From Bacteroidota bacterium (GTDB lineage Bacteria; Bacteroidota; Bacteroidia; AKYH767-A; OLB10), in the NCBI GenBank assembly GCA_024643795.1, contig JAHEMF010000019.1, positions 1-47,024 of the forward strand: a DNA stretch of 47,024 nucleotides, written 5' to 3'. Below, one piece after another: positions 6,519 through 30,665 of the stretch. The notes below the pieces were generated by a model, which searched no databases, had not been told where the DNA came from, and saw only the letters and a program-made list of their open reading frames with translations. The position numbers and the translations under genes were made by a program. The stretch's first letter is position 1. Every line of letters begins with the position of its first letter.

Positions 6519-7835
6519 ATGGCAATTAGTATAATAATTTCAATTTTACTCCTTTTATTAAATGGTTTTTTCGTGGCTGCAGAATTTGCGATCGTAAAGG
6601 TCAGGATGGCCCAAATAGATCTTAAGGTAAATTCAGGAAATCAACTTGCCAGCATATCGAAGCATATAGTTGAGCACCTCGATGCTTATCTTTCAGCAAC
6701 ACAATTAGGAATAACTATGACAAGCCTTGGCCTTGGATGGCTGGGAGAATCTGTATTCAGCACTTTAATTTTAAATAGTTTCAATTTTTTTAATTTAGAT
6801 CTTGACCCGGAAACTGCACACAAAATTGCATTCCCAGTTGCTTTCGGCTTACTTACCGTTTTACACATCGTATTAGGTGAGCTGGCACCAAAATCAATTG
6901 CCATTCGTTTTCCATTAAATACTACACTTTCTATTTCAGCACCATTACGAGTGTTTTATATAGTATTTAGCCCGTTGATATGGACACTGAATAAGCTTGC
7001 CAACTTTCTTTTAAAACTTATAGGTGTAAGGTCTGTTGGTGGACATGAGGTTCATACTGAAGAAGAGTTGAAGCTTATCCTCACTGAAAGCGAAGAGGGA
7101 GGAGCTATTAAGCAATCTGAACATGACCTTATTCAGAATGTGTTTGAATTTGACGACCGAATAGTTCGCCAAATTCTAGTACCCAGAACAAAAGTTTCTG
7201 GCATTGATATCGACACTCCAAATGATGAAATAATTCAACAAGTCATTAACGAAGGATATTCAAGGTTTCCGGTATACAAAGACAATATTGATAATATCAT
7301 TGGTATAATACATACCCGTGACTTCTTAAAACTCTTGCAACTGGATGACTTCCCGGGGATCAGGGAGATCATAAGGCCTGCATATTTTATTCCCATCACG
7401 AAAAGAATAAACGCTTTGTTGAGAGAGTTGCAAACTCAGCACATTCAGATGGCAATAGTTACCACAGAATTTGGAGGAACTGCAGGACTGGTAACAATGG
7501 AAGATATCATTGAAGAGCTAGTAGGCGAGATCCAGGATGAGTATGATGAGGAAAAACCTTTTGTTGAAAAAATCAGTGAAACAGAATTTATCGTCAATGC
7601 CCAATCCGCGGTTAGCGATGTAAATGACCTACTGCCCATTACACTTCCTGAAAGCAATGAATACGATACCATTTCCGGACTCGTAAATTATATTTTCGGA
7701 AGAATACCAGCTGTGAATGAAAAACGTGTTTATGGTGGTTATGAATTCACCATCTTGAAACGTTTTCGCCATAGTGTAGAAAGCATTAAAATGGTCGTGG
7801 TTGAAAGGGGAACAACGGGCAACCAAGAAGATTAA
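6519..7835 (+). CDS. CNNM/CorC (HlyC/CorC) family membrane protein with CBS pair
   Basis: 438 residues. Domain order: DUF21/CNNM membrane domain (residues about 1-190, four hydrophobic segments beginning LLLLLNGFFVAAEFAIVK), two CBS domains (about 205-325, including VPRTKVSGIDI and FPVYKDNIDNIIGIIHTRD), then the CorC_HlyC domain (about 345-430, ending ESIKMVVVERG). The family is linked to magnesium or cobalt handling; the old name hemolysin is misleading. GldE, a gliding protein, shares this architecture, but nothing here points to GldE in particular. The stop codon overlaps that of mfd by 4 bases, tail to tail. Confidence 0.9.
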   Translation: MAISIIISILLLLLNGFFVAAEFAIVKVRMAQIDLKVNSGNQLASISKHIVEHLDAYLSATQLGITMTSLGLGWLGESVFSTLILNSFNFFNLDLDPETAHKIAFPVAFGLLTVLHIVLGELAPKSIAIRFPLNTTLSISAPLRVFYIVFSPLIWTLNKLANFLLKLIGVRSVGGHEVHTEEELKLILTESEEGGAIKQSEHDLIQNVFEFDDRIVRQILVPRTKVSGIDIDTPNDEIIQQVINEGYSRFPVYKDNIDNIIGIIHTRDFLKLLQLDDFPGIREIIRPAYFIPITKRINALLRELQTQHIQMAIVTTEFGGTAGLVTMEDIIEELVGEIQDEYDEEKPFVEKISETEFIVNAQSAVSDVNDLLPITLPESNEYDTISGLVNYIFGRIPAVNEKRVYGGYEFTILKRFRHSVESIKMVVVERGTTGNQED

Positions 7836-10800
7836 ACTTCCACTTTAATGATGTTAATACTTTCGAATATTTTCATTAAAAGTTTTTGTGCCTGATCAAC
7901 CGTACTCACCCCCTCAAAAGTAATTGTAAGTTTATTATTTTTCTGATTCATTCTGCATTGTGAAGGATTCATCTGTATATAGCGGATCACAGAATTAAAT
8001 ATTCCAGACTTGTAAAAATCTGATTCAGGATCAGAAATAAAAGTACCCCTCATAAATCCTTTTTTCAATGTAACCTTCTCAAATCCAAGATGTTTTGCCA
8101 TCCAGCGTAAGCGTATGGCACTTGCAAGTTCCAGAAGCGGCGATGGCACAGGACCAAAACGGTCACGTAAATTGCTTAAATATTTATTGAGGTCTTTTTC
8201 ATCATCAATATCATCCAACTCTTTGTAGATATTCAACCTTTCGGTTATGTTGGTAATATAGTCGGTTGGTATGAGTATTTCAAGATCAGTATCAATCTGG
8301 CAATCTGAAACATAATCTTTACTATCATCTTCCGGAAACAACCCTTTAAAGTCCGTTGCTTTTAACTCACGTATAGCTTCATCCAGAATCTTATGATACA
8401 TTTCATATCCGATCTCTGAAATAAATCCACTTTGCTCACCTCCCAACAGGTTTCCGGCACCTCTTATATCGAGGTCTCGCATAGCTATTGAAAACCCGCT
8501 ACCTAGATCTGAAAACTCTTCAATTGCCTTGAGTCTTTGTCGGGCTTCTGGCGTTAAGACACTCAAAGGCGGAGATAATAAATAGCAAAATGCTTTTGTA
8601 TTAGAACGCCCAACCCTGCCGCGCATCTGATGCAGATCACTCAAACCAAAATGATGTGCCTGATTTATAATAATTGTGTTTGCGTTTGAAATATCAAGCC
8701 CAGATTCAATAATGGTCGTTGAAACAAGTACGTCAGTCTCTCCATTGATAAACCTCATCAATACTTTTTCCAACTGCTCTCCATCCATCTGACCATGACC
8801 AACATCAATGGACACGTCAGGACAAAGCTTTTTGATCATGGATGCAACCTCATGGATATCCTGCACCCTGTTATGTACAAAAAAAACTTGACCACCCCTA
8901 GAAACCTCATAATGGATTGCCTCTCTGATTATTTTATCATTAAAAGCATGAAGTTCGGTAGTTACTGGATATCTGTTGGGTGGGGGTGTATTTATTATGC
9001 TTAGATCACGCGCACCCATCAATGAAAACTGCAAAGTTCTTGGGATGGGAGTTGCCGTTAATGTGAGAGTATCAACATTTACCCGAAGTGCTTTGAGTTT
9101 TTCCTTTGAGCTAACTCCAAACTTTTGCTCTTCATCTATGATCAACAATCCCAGGTCCTTAAATTTAATGTCCTTACTCAGCAATCTGTGAGTACCAATT
9201 ATGATATCAATTTTACCTTCAACCAATCTTTTTTTTGTCTCAGTTTGTTGAGCCGCTGATTTAAAACGATTGATATAATCGACCGTACAGGGGAATTCCT
9301 TCAACCTTTCAGAAAAAGTACGATAATGTTGTAAGGCAAGAATGGTAGTAGGAACCAGAATAGCTACCTGTTTACTGTCGGCCACAGCCTTAAACGCTGC
9401 CCTAACTGCGATCTCTGTTTTTCCAAAGCCAACATCACCACATATCAACCTGTCCATAGGATACGGCTTCTCCATATCCTTTTTAAAATCTGCAGTCGAC
9501 TTAACCTGATCCGGAGTATCTTCAAAAATAAATGAAGCTTCAAGCTCAGATTGCATATAATTGTCTTTCGAAAATGCGAATCCTTTCTGTGCTTTTCTGG
9601 CAGCATACAAACCTATTAAGTCCTTGGCGATATCCTTGACCCGCTTTTTAGTTTTCTGCTTTAATGTGTTCCATGCATTTGATCCAAGTTTGTTGAGCTT
9701 AGGTTGTGTTCCTTCCTTTCCTGAATAACGTGATATACGATGAAGCGAATGAATACTCACATACAAAATATCATTATCCTTATATACTAATCTTATTGCC
9801 TCCTGCATACGACCTTCCACGTCAACCTTTTCAAGTCCGGCAAATTTTCCAATACCATGATCGATATGAGTTACGAAATCACCGGGCCTCAAACTATACA
9901 ACTCTTTCAGGGTCATTGCTTCTGACCTTCCAAAGTTCCGTTTCAACCTATACCTGTGGTATCTGTTAAAGATCTGGTGATCCGTATAGCATGCAAGTTT
10001 TAAATCATCATCAATGAATCCTTCATGCAGTGAAAGCAACAAAGTAGAAAAAGACAATTCCTTTCCCGGCGTTTTCTCTTTTAATTCAAGATCTTCAAAT
10101 ATGGCATAGATCCTTTCAATTTGATTAGGTGTATCAGAAAATATTATTGTTGAATATCCGGATTTATCATTCGCCAGTATTGTATTCCCAAGCAACTCAA
10201 AATTCTTATTAAATGATGGCTGCGGCTTTGAATTGTAAATGATATTATTTGATTTCTTATTATAGGTTCGAGTACCACATTCAACGATCCTATTCTTTTG
10301 CAATCCTGATAAAACTTTTTCAGTATCATCGAATACATCTTCAGCCTTACCTTTTACTTTATCGTAAAGTTCTTCTGCGCCCGTATCAACAGGGACTGAT
10401 TCATTCATCATCTTTAATCCACCCTGCATCACCTGAAGACTGTGATCAAGATCCAGCGCCCAGACTATGATATCATCTGATAAAAAATCAACAAATGATT
10501 GCCTTTGATCATCCAACATCTTTTGCTGCACATTAGGGATGATGGAGATATGATTCATATCCTTTTCAGAAAGTTGTGAAACGGGGTCAAATTCCCGTAT
10601 TGCCTCTATTTCCTGATCAGAGAACTCCAATCTGTACGGATTCTCATTTGAAAATGAATATATATCAACAATACCTCCCCGCACCGAGTATTGTCCTGCT
10701 TCATAAACAAAATCTGTACGCTCAAATCCATGTTCATTCAGGAACTCCATTATAAATTCCACTGAAAGCTTCTCACCCACCCTAGCTTCGACTGTATTTT

Positions 10801-23896: not shown

Positions 23897-25486
23897 ATGA
23901 TAAATAAAGAACCAGTAGTTGAAATAGGTCCAATAGAAGTAGAAGAGTTTGAACAATTCAGAGAAGCCATGATTGCTGCTTATCCCAATTGGGAGGGCAG
24001 TTATTGGACAAGAACCACTATTGAAAAACTGATAAACTTATTTCCTGCTGGCCAAATTGGCATTTACATGAACGGCACACTTGTGGGTAGCGCACTCAGC
24101 ATAATTGTAGATTACGATAAATACGGTGACGCACATACTTATTCGCAAATAACCGGCAAATACACTTTTGACACTCATACTACAAAGGGTGATGTACTTT
24201 ACGGTATTGATGTATTTATTCATCCTGATCACCGTGGCAAACACCTGGGACGCAGGTTATATGATGCAAGGAAAGAACTATGTGAACACCTCAACCTGCG
24301 CTCTATAATTTTTGGAGGAAGGATTCCTAATTATCACAAATATGCTGCTGATATGCCTCCTAAAGAGTACATGCAAAAAGTGAAGTACAAAGAAATATAT
24401 GACCCGGTACTCACCTTTCAGCTATCTAATGATTTTCATATTCGAAAAGTTTTGAAGAACTATCTTCCTGACGATAATGAGTCACTGGAGTTTGGAACTT
24501 TAATGGAATGGAACAATATCTATTATGATCCGGAAAAACTTAATCTCACTCTGAACAATACCGTGAGGTTAGGTCTCGTGCAATGGCAAATGCGCCCGTA
24601 CAAAGATCTTGCAGAACTGGATCAGCAAATAGATTACTTTGCTGAAGTGGTTTCCGGTTACAAATGTGACTTCATGCTTTTGCCGGAACTATTCAACGCA
24701 CCTCTGATGTCGGAATTCAACCACCTTTCAGAATCTGAAGCCATTCGGGCCATTTCAAAATATACTGAGCCTATCAAGGAAAAGCTGCTTGATCTCGCGA
24801 TCAAATACAATGTCAATATTATTGCAGGCAGTATGCCTGAAATGAGAGACGACCACTTATATAATATAGGTCACTTACTTAGAAGAGATGGGACGTATGA
24901 ACGATACGAGAAGATCCATATCACACCCAATGAACTTCGCTATTGGGGAATGAAAGGTGGCGACAAGGTTAAAGTGTTTGAAACCGATTGTGCCCGTATA
25001 GGAGTACTTATTTGCTATGATGTTGAATTTCCTGAACTAGCGCGACTGATGGCCATTGAAGGAATGGATATTCTCTTCGTACCATTTTTGACCGACACTC
25101 AAAATGCATACAGCCGCGTGAGAAACTGTGCACAGGCAAGAGCCATAGAAAATGAATGCTATGTGGCTATGGCAGGTAGTATTGGTAACCTTCCCAAGGT
25201 GAAAAATATGGATATTCAATACGCACAATCAATGGTGCTTACACCATGCGACTTCCCCTTTCCGGCCAACGGAATAAAAGGAGAGGCTACAACCAATTCA
25301 GAAATGGTATTGATAGTTGATGTAGACCTTGACCTGCTTAAAGAATTGCATGAATACGGAAGCGTAAAGACAATGAAAGATCGCAGAACCGATCTGTATG
25401 AAGTCAAGCTGGTTCCTTCAGATAAAAACAATGAAAAGAAGGAATCATTGAATAATACATCGTCTGGCGTTACCTCAAAAGCGTAA
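23897..25486 (+). CDS. Bifunctional GNAT acetyltransferase / carbon-nitrogen hydrolase
   Basis: 529 residues. Residues about 8-150 are a GNAT domain (IDVFIHPDHRGKHLGRRLYDARKEL holds the acetyl-CoA loop). Residues about 215-500 are a nitrilase-superfamily domain with the Glu-Lys-Cys triad: E264 in LLPELFNAP, K339 in YEKIHITPNE and C373 in LICYDVEFPEL. Nitrilase-type enzymes cleave amide or nitrile bonds; GNAT domains acetylate amines. The same fusion is annotated in other bacteria, but its substrate is not known to me. The last 17 bases overlap the 3' end of the surface-protein gene on the other strand; the final 20 or so residues look like a low-complexity tail. Confidence 0.92.
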   Translation: MINKEPVVEIGPIEVEEFEQFREAMIAAYPNWEGSYWTRTTIEKLINLFPAGQIGIYMNGTLVGSALSIIVDYDKYGDAHTYSQITGKYTFDTHTTKGDVLYGIDVFIHPDHRGKHLGRRLYDARKELCEHLNLRSIIFGGRIPNYHKYAADMPPKEYMQKVKYKEIYDPVLTFQLSNDFHIRKVLKNYLPDDNESLEFGTLMEWNNIYYDPEKLNLTLNNTVRLGLVQWQMRPYKDLAELDQQIDYFAEVVSGYKCDFMLLPELFNAPLMSEFNHLSESEAIRAISKYTEPIKEKLLDLAIKYNVNIIAGSMPEMRDDHLYNIGHLLRRDGTYERYEKIHITPNELRYWGMKGGDKVKVFETDCARIGVLICYDVEFPELARLMAIEGMDILFVPFLTDTQNAYSRVRNCAQARAIENECYVAMAGSIGNLPKVKNMDIQYAQSMVLTPCDFPFPANGIKGEATTNSEMVLIVDVDLDLLKELHEYGSVKTMKDRRTDLYEVKLVPSDKNNEKKESLNNTSSGVTSKA

Positions 25487-28400
25487 CTCTGTCAACCCGT
25501 GTATGGGTATCGCCAACCTGATCTTTGATAACTGCCTTGTAGATGTAAATACCTTGCGGAGAAGGTTTGCCAGTATTCATATCAATTCCATCCCAGGCAA
25601 CATCTGTATTGGAGGTTTTATGAACAACCTTACCCCAACGATCGAATATCACTATCTCATACTCCTCAATTCCTACACCATAAATCTTAAATTTATCATT
25701 TACCCCATTGTTCTCAGGAGTAAATGCGTTAGGAATATAGATCATGATATCATCTCTCACTTTCACTGCCTGCATCACGGAATCCGTACATCCATCTATT
25801 GAAGTTACCATAAGTTTTACAATATATAAACCGGTGTCCTGATATGTATGCACCGGATCTGTAACATTGGAAGCAAAAGCATTATCACCGAAATCCCAAA
25901 CACGGTTAACAGCTCCGTTACTGATATCCTTAAAGTATACTGTAGGGAAATTTCTGGTTGGGTCTGATGGGTCATAAGTGAATGCAGCCTTAGGTTTGGG
26001 ATATACAGTGATCGGCTGACCTGCAACAGCAGTGCCTGCACATGAACCAGCAGCATTTGAAGTAATAGTTAAGGAAGGTAAGAATGAGCCTTCAGTCCAA
26101 TACAGATGCTGTGGCTCAGCAACTGTTGAATTTGTGCCATCACCAAAGTCCCAGTTATAATTCAGCCCCGGCACAACACCTCCATTGATAGTAAAACTCA
26201 CTTCCAAAGGCTCACATCCCGCCAAGGGATTCATATTAAATGAAACCGAAGGTGGATCAACTGCAACAATTGAAACCGAACCAATAGCCTGTGGGCTGTT
26301 ACAGCCATCAGATAGCGTAAAGGATAAACTAGTACTCTGAACAATGGTAATTGTATTGGAACTTCCTGTCATACCATTGCTCCATTGTATAGAATAATTT
26401 CCATCACCACCTGAAGCATTTGCATTAACGGTGATTTCTGTTCCTGAGCAAACTGAATCAGGAGCTGAGATGCTGAGGGCAAGAGGTGGCCTCACCGAAA
26501 CAGAACTAGATGATGATGTTGCTATACATCCGTTTGCATCTGTAATGGTTACCACATAGCTTGTTGTATTTACCGGAGCTGCACTTATTGAAGAACCAAT
26601 TGATCCATCACTCCATTGATAAGTATAAGGCGCTGTACCTCCTGATGCATTTAATGTGATCTGTACACTCCCTCCTTGACAAATAGTAAATGGTCCGGGT
26701 ATAGAAACCTGCAACAAAAGCGGTTCATTTATTGTGGTTTGATAGCTTGACTGACATCCTGCCTGATCTGTTACTGTTAAGGTATAAACACCTGCACTTG
26801 CATTTAGCAGACCGGAACCTGATGAACCATCAGACCACAAATAAGAATATGGTGGTTGCCCTCCACTTACATTTACTGCAACCGATCCGTTTGAACCACC
26901 ATTGCATAGTACATGAGTGATCTGTTGTAATGTTATAGCAGGAGCATTGGCCGATTGTAGCTGTTCAGTAATTGAAAAAGTACATCCGTTGGCATCTGTA
27001 ATAACAATACCATAAACCCCTGCTGATAAATTTTGTGCACCTGACCCAACCGAAACAGAAGGAGTCCAGTTATAATTGTATGGTCCTGTTCCTCCACTTA
27101 CATTCAAAGTAATGCTTCCGTTTTGCAAACCGCATGTTGGTTGTACAACTGTTGCAGATGAAGAAAGTACCTGCTGAGGTTCGGTCACTGAAATCTGTGT
27201 GCTTTGCGTGCAACTGTTCTGATCAGTCACGGTTACTGAATAAGTGCCCGCAGATAGATTGCTTGCAGTTGGTCCAATAGATATATTTCCCTGCCATTGC
27301 CAAGTGATCTGACCTGTACCGCCTGATACATTCATTACAACTTCACCGGTGTTATCTCCTTTACATAGTACATTGGTTACAGATACATTTTGCAGAACCA
27401 GCGCCGGTGGCTGAATAATAGTTGTAGATACTGTACCTGTACACCCATTAGCATCGGTAACTGTTACTGAATACACTCCCGGCGCTAATGATGAAATATT
27501 CTGTGTGGTTTGGCCCGATGACCAGCTGTAACTATACGGTTGCACTCCTCCGCTAATGTTGATATCAATGGAGCCGTTGTTCAATCCATTGCATGTGATG
27601 TCTGTCGTCCCCGCAAGGGTAACAATAGGCTTTGAAGAATTAGCAACTTGAATATTTTTGATTAATGTGCAGCCATTCGCATCTGTTATAGTTACTGTAT
27701 AAGCTCCACCTGATAACGACGAAGCAAATGCAGATGTTGAAACTGAAGGTGACCATTGGTATGCATACCCCGGAACTCCTCCACTTGTATTTAACTGTAC
27801 AGAACCATTTTGCCCTCCACATGAAGTATTAACAATAGTAGGGTTTGCAGACAGAGCAGTTGGCGGCTCTGAAATCACAACACTTGCGGTTACTGTACAC
27901 CCGGCATTTATAGTTACTGCAACGGTGTACATACCTGCTGAAAGATTATTTGCCGTAGCTCCCGTTCCTCCCGATGGAGACCATGAATAAGTGAATGGCC
28001 CTGAAGCTCCTGTAACAGCAACAGTAGCAGATCCATTGTTACCTCCATGACAGTTTACGTCTGTACTTGAAATAATACTGGCTGATGGGCCATTGACACT
28101 TGGCACATTTAAAAAATAATTGAGCACGCATTGGTTAGCATCTGTAATGGTAACCATATAACCACCTGCAGATAAACCGGAAGCATTAGGTGTGTTCCCG
28201 CCACTGGGCCACCATGAATAACTATATGGAGGTTGTCCATTCTGAACCGTAACCGCTGCCGAACCATTAGCAGCACATCCGTTGGCAGGTGTAGTTGTAA
28301 CTGTAGCTGACATTCCAGTTAATGGCTGGTTAATGGTAACTGATGCCTGAGAAACACACCCGGCCTGGCTGGTAACAGTTACCGTATATGTTCCGGCAAC

Positions 28401-29474
28401 CAAGAACTGCGCACTGGCACTATTACCTCCACTGGGAGACCATTGATAGGTGAAAGGACCTGCCGCGCCACTTACCGTTGCCGTAGCAGAGCCATTGTTT
28501 CCGCCAAAACAGGTTACATCATTCTTTTGTAATGATACATTGAAACTGTTGATCTGTATCGGAAAACTCTGAACTCCTGTTGTGGTGTTACCACATTGAT
28601 CATCAACAGTACCTGTCATGGTGAATGTGAATGCACCCGTTTGAATTATAGCCGGGCTTAATGTTAATATATAATTCTTAGAAGCTGTGGCTCCTTGTGT
28701 GCATGAAGGACTGCTTACACCGGTAATGGTATAGGGACCACCCGGACCTGTGAGGGTGAAATCACCAGGCTGCACAGTATTACACAAAACCTTCTCGTTG
28801 AATACAACCGATATGGAACTGGCACCGCAATTCAAACTGGTAACATTAGCAATTACAGGTGGAGTATTATCAGTTAAAGAAGCTGTTGATGCAGAGAGAT
28901 CAATCGTATAACCACTTTGGTTGACAGCCGAAAAGCTACTTACGTTCAACACAAAGGTTTGCCCGGCAGCAACCGGAATCATTGGATTGTTTTGCACACC
29001 CGCTAAACCATTTGCGCCGGTAACACCGGTGATGTTGCTATAATTACAAGAAAGCTCAAGTGTGGGATCTGAAAAAATATCAGAACACGATGCATTGGAA
29101 ATATTATAAAGAGCCCAGTCGTAGTTTTCTCCAATGTTATTGGGCACTATGCTGAATGCCAGATTACCTGCTGAAGAAGTAGTAAATATATACCATGCAT
29201 CATTCCGTTCACCCGTAAGCAAACAGGAAGTAAGAGCATTTATTTCATTAGGAATGGCTCCTACGCCAGTATAAATGGTATTATTGGTATAAGATGTTCC
29301 GCAAATGGGAATTGCACCCAAACAATCCTGGGGACCGGGAGACTGAGCAAAAACATGTGTTTCAGGTGAAAAAACCACCAGAAATGCGAAAATCCCAGCA
29401 TAAAACCGGAACTTCTGATGTTCAAAATATTTAACAAGATCCCTTTTTACGGGAATCCCTGTTTTAGACCCCAC
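25470..29474 (-). CDS. Giant surface protein with SprB repeats, PKD domains and T9SS type B (gliding motility) C-terminal domain
   Basis: 1334 residues. Order: long signal peptide (to about residue 44, THVFAQ); an N-terminal domain with DCLGAIPICG and GERNDAWYIFTT, common in T9SS surface proteins; an Ig-like region (about 210-310, TPPVIANVTSLNC); eight SprB-type repeats (about 315-930), each opening C-x-G-x-x-N-G-S and ending GTYTVTVTDANGC-like; two weaker Ig-like units; two PKD domains (WDFGDGTNS near 1107, WDFGDNAF near 1192); and the gliding-motility C-terminal domain from about 1243 (IPNAFTPENNGVNDKF to VTLLR). SprB-type proteins are adhesins moved along the cell surface in gliding cells. 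This one is secreted and held at the surface by T9SS. Repeats differ in sequence, so they are old rather than recent copies. Confidence 0.93.
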   Translation of the reverse strand: MGSKTGIPVKRDLVKYFEHQKFRFYAGIFAFLVVFSPETHVFAQSPGPQDCLGAIPICGTSYTNNTIYTGVGAIPNEINALTSCLLTGERNDAWYIFTTSSAGNLAFSIVPNNIGENYDWALYNISNASCSDIFSDPTLELSCNYSNITGVTGANGLAGVQNNPMIPVAAGQTFVLNVSSFSAVNQSGYTIDLSASTASLTDNTPPVIANVTSLNCGASSISVVFNEKVLCNTVQPGDFTLTGPGGPYTITGVSSPSCTQGATASKNYILTLSPAIIQTGAFTFTMTGTVDDQCGNTTTGVQSFPIQINSFNVSLQKNDVTCFGGNNGSATATVSGAAGPFTYQWSPSGGNSASAQFLVAGTYTVTVTSQAGCVSQASVTINQPLTGMSATVTTTPANGCAANGSAAVTVQNGQPPYSYSWWPSGGNTPNASGLSAGGYMVTITDANQCVLNYFLNVPSVNGPSASIISSTDVNCHGGNNGSATVAVTGASGPFTYSWSPSGGTGATANNLSAGMYTVAVTINAGCTVTASVVISEPPTALSANPTIVNTSCGGQNGSVQLNTSGGVPGYAYQWSPSVSTSAFASSLSGGAYTVTITDANGCTLIKNIQVANSSKPIVTLAGTTDITCNGLNNGSIDINISGGVQPYSYSWSSGQTTQNISSLAPGVYSVTVTDANGCTGTVSTTIIQPPALVLQNVSVTNVLCKGDNTGEVVMNVSGGTGQITWQWQGNISIGPTASNLSAGTYSVTVTDQNSCTQSTQISVTEPQQVLSSSATVVQPTCGLQNGSITLNVSGGTGPYNYNWTPSVSVGSGAQNLSAGVYGIVITDANGCTFSITEQLQSANAPAITLQQITHVLCNGGSNGSVAVNVSGGQPPYSYLWSDGSSGSGLLNASAGVYTLTVTDQAGCQSSYQTTINEPLLLQVSIPGPFTICQGGSVQITLNASGGTAPYTYQWSDGSIGSSISAAPVNTTSYVVTITDANGCIATSSSSSVSVRPPLALSISAPDSVCSGTEITVNANASGGDGNYSIQWSNGMTGSSNTITIVQSTSLSFTLSDGCNSPQAIGSVSIVAVDPPSVSFNMNPLAGCEPLEVSFTINGGVVPGLNYNWDFGDGTNSTVAEPQHLYWTEGSFLPSLTITSNAAGSCAGTAVAGQPITVYPKPKAAFTYDPSDPTRNFPTVYFKDISNGAVNRVWDFGDNAFASNVTDPVHTYQDTGLYIVKLMVTSIDGCTDSVMQAVKVRDDIMIYIPNAFTPENNGVNDKFKIYGVGIEEYEIVIFDRWGKVVHKTSNTDVAWDGIDMNTGKPSPQGIYIYKAVIKDQVGDTHTRVDRVTLLR

Positions 29475-29570: not shown

Positions 29571-30512
29571 ATGAAAGTCACTGTTGTAGGAGCAGGAAAC
29601 GTTGGAGCAACTTGTGCCAACGTAATTGCACACAAAGAACTTTGTAACGAGGTTATTCTGCTCGATATCAAGGAAGGCGTTGCAGAAGGCAAATCCCTTG
29701 ATATGTGGCAGACCTCGCCGATCAACTTATACGATACACGCATAAAAGGTTGCACAAATGACTATGCTCAGACCGAAGGTTCTGACGTAGTGGTAATTAC
29801 ATCAGGTTTGCCTAGAAAACCCGGTATGAGTCGCGATGACCTTATTGCCACAAACGCCGGCATTGTCAGGTCTGTTACAGAGAATATCGTGAAATACTCT
29901 CCAAATGCTATCATCATAGTGGTTTCCAACCCGTTAGATGTAATGACCTATTGCGCATTTCTGACCTCAGGATTTCCATCAAGCAAGGTATTTGGTATGG
30001 CTGGTATCTTAGATACAGCCCGCTACCGTGCATTCCTTGCCGAAGCACTTAATGTTTCTCCAAAAGATATTCAGGCAGTGCTAATGGGTGGTCATGGTGA
30101 TACCATGGTTCCGTTACCACGCTATACAACTGTTGCCGGAATTCCGGTAACCGAGATGATCGACACTGAAAAGCTCGATGCCATTGTTGAACGCACCAAA
30201 AAAGGTGGCGGTGAACTGGTAAACCTCATGGGAACTTCTGCATGGTACGCTCCAGGAGCTGCTGCTGCCCAAATGGTGGAAGCTATTGTGAGAGATCAGA
30301 AAAGGATCTTCCCGTGTTGCGCATGGCTCCAGGGTGAATATGGAATGAAAGATATTTATCTGGGAGTACCTGTAAAACTTGGACGTAACGGAATTGAGGA
30401 GGTTATCCAGCTTGATCTCAACAACGACGAAAAAGAACTTCTTAAAAATTCGGCAACTGCTGTTAAAGAAGTCATGAAGGTTCTCGATAATATGCAGGAA
30501 GCTGCCAAATAA
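29571..30512 (+). CDS. mdh: Malate dehydrogenase (NAD-dependent, LDH-like type)
   Basis: 313 residues, the length of LDH-like malate dehydrogenases. The Rossmann motif GAGNVGA is at residues 7-13; an acidic residue follows strand 2 (LLDIKEG), which favours NAD. Substrate-binding arginines lie in [12 protein letters not shown], and SNPLDVMTY and the catalytic histidine H175 in [10 protein letters not shown] are present. It interconverts malate and oxaloacetate in the TCA cycle. Arginine at the first position of the LPRKPGM loop marks malate rather than lactate use. A terminator follows at 30541. Confidence 0.97.
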
Positions 30513-30540
30513 CAGCGACTAACATTATTGAATATACGAA

Positions 30541-30570
30541 ATGCCGGCTCATCAGTCGGTATTTTTTTTT
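30541..30570 (+). terminator. Rho-independent terminator of mdh
   Basis: ATGCCGGCT (30541-30549) pairs with AGTCGGTAT (30554-30562) through nine pairs, two of them G-U, across a four-base loop. A run of nine T (30562-30570) follows. The T-run directly abuts the GC-rich folded element at 30571. Confidence 0.8.
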
Positions 30571-30665
30571 GGGCGTTGCCCGCCTGCACCCTTTCAATAT
30601 TTCTGTGCAGTACCTGAAGCGGGCCGGGCTTTCGTGCGCCGGAGGCTGCACTCAATCCCTAACGC
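30571..30665. repeat. 95-base GC-rich folded intergenic element (probable dispersed Bacteroidota repeat or structured RNA)
   Basis: It begins GGGCGTTGCC right after the mdh terminator and ends CAATCCCTAACGC. 59 of its 95 bases are G or C, against AT-rich flanks. Complementary segments nest: GCGTT 30573-30577 with AACGC 30661-30665; GCCCGC 30578-30583 with GCGGGC 30619-30624; CTGCAC 30584-30589 with GTGCAG 30605-30610; and GTGCGCC 30634-30640 with GGC-T-GCAC 30644-30651. This gives a closing stem, a long arm and a second hairpin. From memory, intergenic elements starting GGGCGTT and ending CCCTAACGC recur in many Bacteroidota genomes, but I cannot check that here. An overlapping reading frame (30541-30744) is not a believable gene. 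There is only one copy in this window. Confidence 0.6.

Follow-up and report, generated by a model that had tools for sequence, protein, structure and literature searches.

A Flavo-1-like three-way-junction repeat behind mdh and its relatives in genomes, plasmids and phages of Bacteroidota

A GC-rich segment of 95 bases lies behind the mdh gene in the stretch of Bacteroidota DNA analysed here (47,024 nucleotides; called the window). We demonstrate for this element the structure of its family, its copy number and spread, its intergenic placement in both orientations, its carriage by plasmids and phages, its long retention in unchanged places and the replacement of whole arms between copies. The window element is a distinct three-armed variant within a larger Flavo-1-like group. 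The best explanation, in which our confidence is evenly balanced, is that of an old, hairpin-marked DNA repeat that mobile DNA has spread and that has been reshaped as its copies recombined with one another. Flavo-1, unexplained in Rfam since 2010, is now placed inside a larger three-way-junction element. The many copies missed by Rfam, the DNA-like evolution with swapping of arms, and the ties to terL and to plasmid junctions lead to concrete hypotheses. They also call for caution: such sites should be annotated neither as genes for RNA nor as the 3' ends of mRNAs.

Structure and copies of the element

Read directly, the segment has 62% GC, and its left edge abuts the T-run, ending at 30570, of an intrinsic-terminator-like hairpin 3' of mdh (29571-30512). 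No plausible coding frame was found within it, the sole ORF being an antisense frame of 99 codons that continues back into mdh, and the original prediction of a non-coding segment therefore holds. A single-sequence RNA fold gave a closing stem, a two-part arm and a second hairpin (Table 1), with a stability that was ordinary for the composition of the window copy (z = -0.58). Because this energy was ordinary, only a comparison of copies could decide whether the pairs are real.

Table 1. Positions of the element and its parts in the window.
Feature	Position	Strand	Basis or remark
Whole element (Flavo-1-type three-way-junction repeat)	30571..30665	.	+ reading GGGCGTT...CCCTAACGC; Rfam Flavo-1 would read -; covariance model R1 and covariation
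P1 closing stem, 5' side GCGTT	30573..30577	+	pairs with 30661-30665
P1 closing stem, 3' side AACGC	30661..30665	+	fold and covariation
P2 arm	30578..30624	+	fold; P2 pairs covary
P2 outer helix, GCCCGC / GCGGGC	30578-30583 / 30619-30624	+	fold
P2 inner helix, CTGCAC / GTGCAG	30584-30589 / 30605-30610	+	fold
P3 arm	30626..30659	+	GGG 30626-30628 / CCC 30657-30659; counterpart of Rfam Flavo-1; fold and covariation
P3 internal loop CTTTC / TCAAT, covarying W-W pair	within 30626..30659	+	
P3 hairpin GTGCGCCGGAGGCTGCAC	30634-30651	+	
mdh terminator-like hairpin and T-run, left flank of element	30540..30570	+	sequence

An alignment of 89 copies, which included the window copy and was drawn partly from copies found by means other than the sequence pattern, showed a common layout: the closing stem P1 (GCGTT/AACGC), P2 immediately after it, a single C, and then P3. 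All three helices covaried, with a score of 0.355 as against 0.114 for shuffled alignments, and both-sided changes were seen in 16 of the 18 pairs. P1 was paired in every sequence with letters at those positions, and compensated variants of it included GCGTG/CACGC, GTGTT/AACAC, GTGTA/TACAC and GCACC/GGTGC. Variation between copies was free in P2, including its hypervariable apex, and in the apex of P3. The GC-rich, multi-stem segment of the original prediction is confirmed by covariation among the copies, and its proposed check with a covariance model showed paired bases changing with compensation.

All copies read ended in (T)GGGCGTT and AACGC or in compensated variants of these, and none had a GT[AG]G or CGTC foot. 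On the left flank, T occupied each of three adjacent positions in 72-78% of copies, while the first position on the right was a purine in 93%; no extension of P1 into the flanks was found. There was no target-site duplication, the flanks of 211 copies being about 30% identical against 27.5% by chance. Since the 3' flank consists of a purine and then mixed sequence with no T-run, the element does not have the form of an intrinsic terminator. The T-rich left flank was considered as a promoter and rejected for want of a conserved upstream box in the flanks.

BLAST against the home genome returned 47 bases at 98% identity, on contig C30, and 45 bases at 93% in another place. Both matched the 3' half of the window copy, to whose 5' arm the 5' arms of these two copies were unrelated. 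We built a covariance model, R1, from 45 diverse copies. In a search of the 2.9 Mb home genome it scored the window copy at 51 bits (E 3.9e-10) and found 11 copies at E < 0.003. Repetition on this scale greatly exceeds what chance would give. Under strict filters R1 matched in 47 of 296 Bacteroidota genomes, and six genomes searched deeply held 8 to 60 copies each, the highest number being in G126. When 84,980 species genomes were scanned with a sequence pattern, at least 117 stretches matched, and among the matches listed these were from Bacteroidota nearly throughout; other titles among them were single records of Treponema, Spirochaetales, Halanaerobiaceae and Saccharibacteria, of which the last may be bin contamination. 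A further match, the Brocadia locus L041, lacked P1 and was dismissed as a chance pattern match. These searches bear out the proposed scatter between genes in many Bacteroidota, as well as the expectation of further copies in the home genome and in relatives. A literature search with sequence strings of the element yielded unrelated primers only.

Some individual copies deserve mention. A plasmid of Moraxella catarrhalis, a gammaproteobacterium outside Bacteroidota, carries a 150-base copy (NZ_CP018060.1; L322 1501-1650; 46.5 bits). In G103 a copy (L227 740-818) separates trpE from trpG inside their operon and lies only a few bases past the trpE stop. On home contig C30 a gene for Small SRP RNA (RF04183, 102 bits) directly adjoins one copy (L135 1351-1457). 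Convergent pairs of copies 43-141 bases apart occur in several genomes (L050 333-554, L038 4022-4333, L027 5753-6028, L116 2942-3173). Convergent pairs 1.5-2 kb apart were considered as a composite transposon, an idea that we rejected, as the enclosed genes were ordinary and differed between pairs.

Relation to Flavo-1, strand and orientation

An Rfam search with the window copy gave no match. However, three phage copies reached the gathering score of 42 bits for Flavo-1 (RF01705) on the complementary strand (L254, 53.7 bits; L260, 52.2 bits; L244, 45.3 bits), and RF01705 matches on the opposite strand coincided with many of the R1 copies in G103 and G198. The RF01705 model spans P3 only. No RF01705 match reached the cut-off in the home genome (11 R1 copies; best match below 42 bits) or in G126, and the top-scoring matches in Flavobacterium were of a form without P1 and P2. 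The arm with internal loops pairing across that marks Flavo-1 is present in the element: the P3 pairs covary in the 89 copies, the window copy among them, and R1 and RF01705 matches overlap. The two share a P3 with conserved internal loops (GATWG-N-AGCG ... AGCGGAWAGC on the complementary strand) and an intergenic, multi-copy occurrence in Bacteroidota. They differ in that the Rfam model is a single arm, whereas the element adds the P1 stem and the P2 arm to make a three-way junction and is read on the opposite strand. Because the model covers P3 only, and because the home genome and G126 fall below its cut-off, we place the element as a member of the Flavo-1-like group but as a distinct variant.

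Flavo-1 was listed as a probable RNA, not cis-regulatory, with no function given (Weinberg et al. 2010; PMC2864571). In the transcriptome of F. psychrophilum its matches lie indifferently sense and antisense to transcribed regions, and many are outside any (PMC9723704). RF01705 is typed as 'sRNA' by prediction and has been an orphan family since its entry in 2010. Where the original prediction knew of no assigned role, the element proves not to be wholly undescribed, since relatives match an Rfam family that is itself an orphan. The home genome also holds a sister subfamily (contigs C5, C30, C54 and C49; L415, L416, L417, L418) in which P1 is apparently CAGC/GCTG and the third arm, CCCGCTATCCGCT...CTATCGGG, is Flavo-1-like and below the Rfam cut-off.

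Between co-directional genes, 89 copies were sense and 46 antisense, and 60 further copies lay between convergent or divergent genes. The upstream gene was oppositely oriented for 84 of 217 copies; where it was on the same strand, one quarter of the copies lay 9 nt or less from its stop. No replication-strand bias was seen in five single-contig genomes, with the origin position assumed or scanned. The - strand folded better in 177 of 226 copies, and mismatches that are invariably C.T on the + strand are G.A on the - strand. An RNA helix is expected to show a marked surplus of G.U over A.C when read on the strand of the RNA itself. In the P2 helices we counted 6 G.T and 12 A.C against 702 Watson-Crick pairs; isolated mismatches were 17 G.T and 13 A.C on the + strand, and 12 G.T and 27 A.C on the - strand. 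The model-fitted alignment gave 14 G.T versus 3 A.C on the + strand, under a model that itself favours G.T. Since non-Watson-Crick pairs are rare, with G.T about as rare as A.C, there is no RNA-like excess of wobble pairs. The evidence, which includes a wobble test with an inadequate RNA control (six tRNAs only; 6S-Flavo gave too few sequences), leans towards an element that works at the level of DNA rather than RNA. The suggestion of a processed small RNA found no support in view of this absence of G-U enrichment and of the mixed orientation to neighbouring genes.

Resident sites, plasmids and phages

At three intergenic sites in a Flavobacterium-like genus (g6), the element has been kept in place in many species, and structure at orthologous sites is maintained by compensation. 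The places behind trpB and in front of ftsY are occupied by copies in more than one genus. No copy was found at the mdh site in 19 loci of relatives, and a clean empty site was not found for any copy; losses in Flavobacterium resemble deletions between short direct repeats. At one Flavobacterium site, L364 and L456 share the left flank, P1 and P2, and have P3 arms of unrelated type. A second copy of the new P3 arm of L456 lies elsewhere in the same genome (G330) and is 93% identical to it. One copy (L384) has lost P3. In L305 (G323) and L317 (G367), a sequence of about 46 bases (AAATGAAATTCACTGAACTC...) is inserted in P3 at an orthologous site, and is possibly a second small mobile repeat.

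In the Bacteroides plasmid pBF9343 a copy starts on the stop codon of a recombinase gene, an arrangement common to about 30 plasmids. Homology between p5482 and pBxylCL11T00C03-1 stops one base past the 3' end of the element. A comparison of pBF9343 with pBACSA01 showed the element and right flank to be alike and the left flank not, indicating a break at the 5' end; in pBACSA01, P3 has collapsed between its own internal direct repeats. No empty site was found in the plasmid families, all members of which carry the element. Integron attC sites are likewise structured and strand-folded, with AAC/GTT-like ends, and lie at plasmid module junctions, but their end motifs are inverted (RYYYAAC ... 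GTTRRRY as against GCGTT ... AACGC in the element), and no cassette arrays were seen here.

The pattern occurs in 29 viral contig stretches, and in 10 of them the element lies 1-17 bases behind a terL-like gene in the same orientation. A search with the TerL proteins alone contributed four more contigs that carry the element there (L428, L430, L432, L444), and about twelve that do not. The distance to terL was 0-17 nt in all 14, and the TerL proteins of the element-bearing phages were mostly 24-38% identical. The assignment as TerL, which is weak by profile, is based on the Walker motif GRGxGKT, on a match to a PHROG terminase (1.9e-6) and on a Pfam match below threshold. A packaging site would be expected in every phage that has this terminase; L433 and L431, with 80% identical DNA, differ in the presence of the element. 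In L261 about 730 bases without a clear gene (7800-8530) separate terL and the element from the next phage gene, and similar long gene-poor stretches follow in L239, L244, L245 and L265.

Explanations weighed

A hairpin-marked DNA repeat, as we prefer to explain the element, would be interspersed and non-autonomous, with copies capable of folding tightly into a three-way-junction hairpin or a cruciform. Mobile DNA would bring in new copies, or a putative enzyme acting on the cruciform or the folded single strand would now and then transpose or copy one. Once resident, copies would be kept and altered by gene conversion or ectopic recombination among them, and could act as junctions for recombination. 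For the copy behind mdh, the most likely reading is that of an insertion resident after the terminator, without a role specific to mdh. In favour of this explanation are the dispersed copies on both strands and in both orientations to genes, the lack of replication-strand bias and of a wobble excess, the absence of a copy behind mdh in relatives, the exchanged P3 arms, the breaks of plasmid homology at the ends of the element, the phage copies behind terL and the published mixed orientation of Flavo-1 matches to transcripts. Several observations stand against this explanation. Persistence with intact structure at orthologous sites in different genera hints at site-level selection and not just selfish spread, and the sense bias together with the fixed orientation behind terL suggests a constraint related to transcription or packaging. 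On the complementary strand the conserved internal loops contain G.A pairs and resemble an RNA motif. No clean empty site, target duplication or associated recombinase was found, and none of 30 Y1 transposase loci has a copy nearby.

A multi-copy structured RNA, as Rfam reads the family, would be transcribed from the complementary strand, with G.A-rich loops that bind protein or RNA. The Flavo-1 matches on that strand, its better folding, the G.A reading of the invariant mismatches and the compensation at orthologous sites argue for such an RNA. Mixed orientation to genes, and to transcripts in published data (PMC9723704), argues against it, as do the missing wobble excess on the complementary strand and the dispersal of 60 copies without a shared promoter, which is unusual for an RNA gene; we regard this RNA as possible but doubtful. 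It is unlikely that the element is a DNA-processing site of phages or plasmids, such as a signal for packaging, for transfer or for recombination, from which the chromosomes were seeded and whose recognised form is folded single-stranded DNA or a cruciform. Its constant place behind terL in 14 viral contigs despite divergent TerL proteins, and the plasmid module junctions at both of its ends, are consistent with such a site. However, many relatives of the same TerL family lack the element, which is therefore not required for packaging; chromosomal copies are mostly unrelated to prophages; and TerL itself is weakly assigned. We also hold it improbable that three-armed Flavo-1 is a recombination or processing site of Bacteroidota phages and plasmids, directed by folded shape, whose chromosomal copies trade arms, and which would form a new class of site with a putative enzyme.

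Movement of the element in single-stranded form by a Y1 (HuH) transposase, as in elements of the IS200/IS605 or REP type, appears very unlikely. Subterminal hairpins, the conserved TTT left flank and the absence of target duplication fit it, and in Bacteroidetes the TnpA-REP subclass 2.6 is reported to be flanked by 'atypical secondary structures', its REPs likewise lacking a GTAG/CGTC foot (Quentin et al., PMC6006769). Y1 transposase genes (PF01797) were present in 14 of 16 carrier genomes, but a search of 30 such loci, each with flanks of about 1.5 kb, gave no copy at E up to 5, and the carriers G029 (8 copies) and G290 (14 or more) gave no PF01797 match; the lack of both the foot and a replichore bias also counts against it. 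Like IS200/IS605-derived non-autonomous elements, the element has terminal hairpins, a left-flank preference and no target duplication, but it lacks TnpA association and strand bias, and its closing stem joins both ends. With the REP elements and REPINs of RAYT systems it shares many short, intergenic, palindromic copies in both orientations and lineage-specific subfamilies; it differs in having no RAYT neighbour or GTAG/CGTC, in forming a three-way junction where those have one or two hairpins, and in its much older positions. A REP-type origin could still lie in the deep past. Of the REP/MITE-like mobile repeat in the original prediction, the structured interspersed repeat stands, while the REP foot, RAYT neighbour and target duplication do not; a strict REP-like reading falls with the missing foot, the 30 Y1 loci without a copy and the two carriers without Y1 genes. 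Least probable of all is that the element gives the gene before it, here mdh, a stable 3' end or a processed 3' UTR. The place directly behind the mdh terminator and the quarter of same-strand copies close to a stop codon point to it; the element nevertheless lies beyond the terminator T-run, the upstream gene is opposite in 84 of 217 copies, and no copy stands behind mdh orthologues in relatives, so that the earlier suggestion of a stable 3' end is not upheld.

Divergent to mdh, the window encodes on its - strand (25470-29474) a secreted-looking repeat protein of 1334 residues with a gliding-type C-terminal end.
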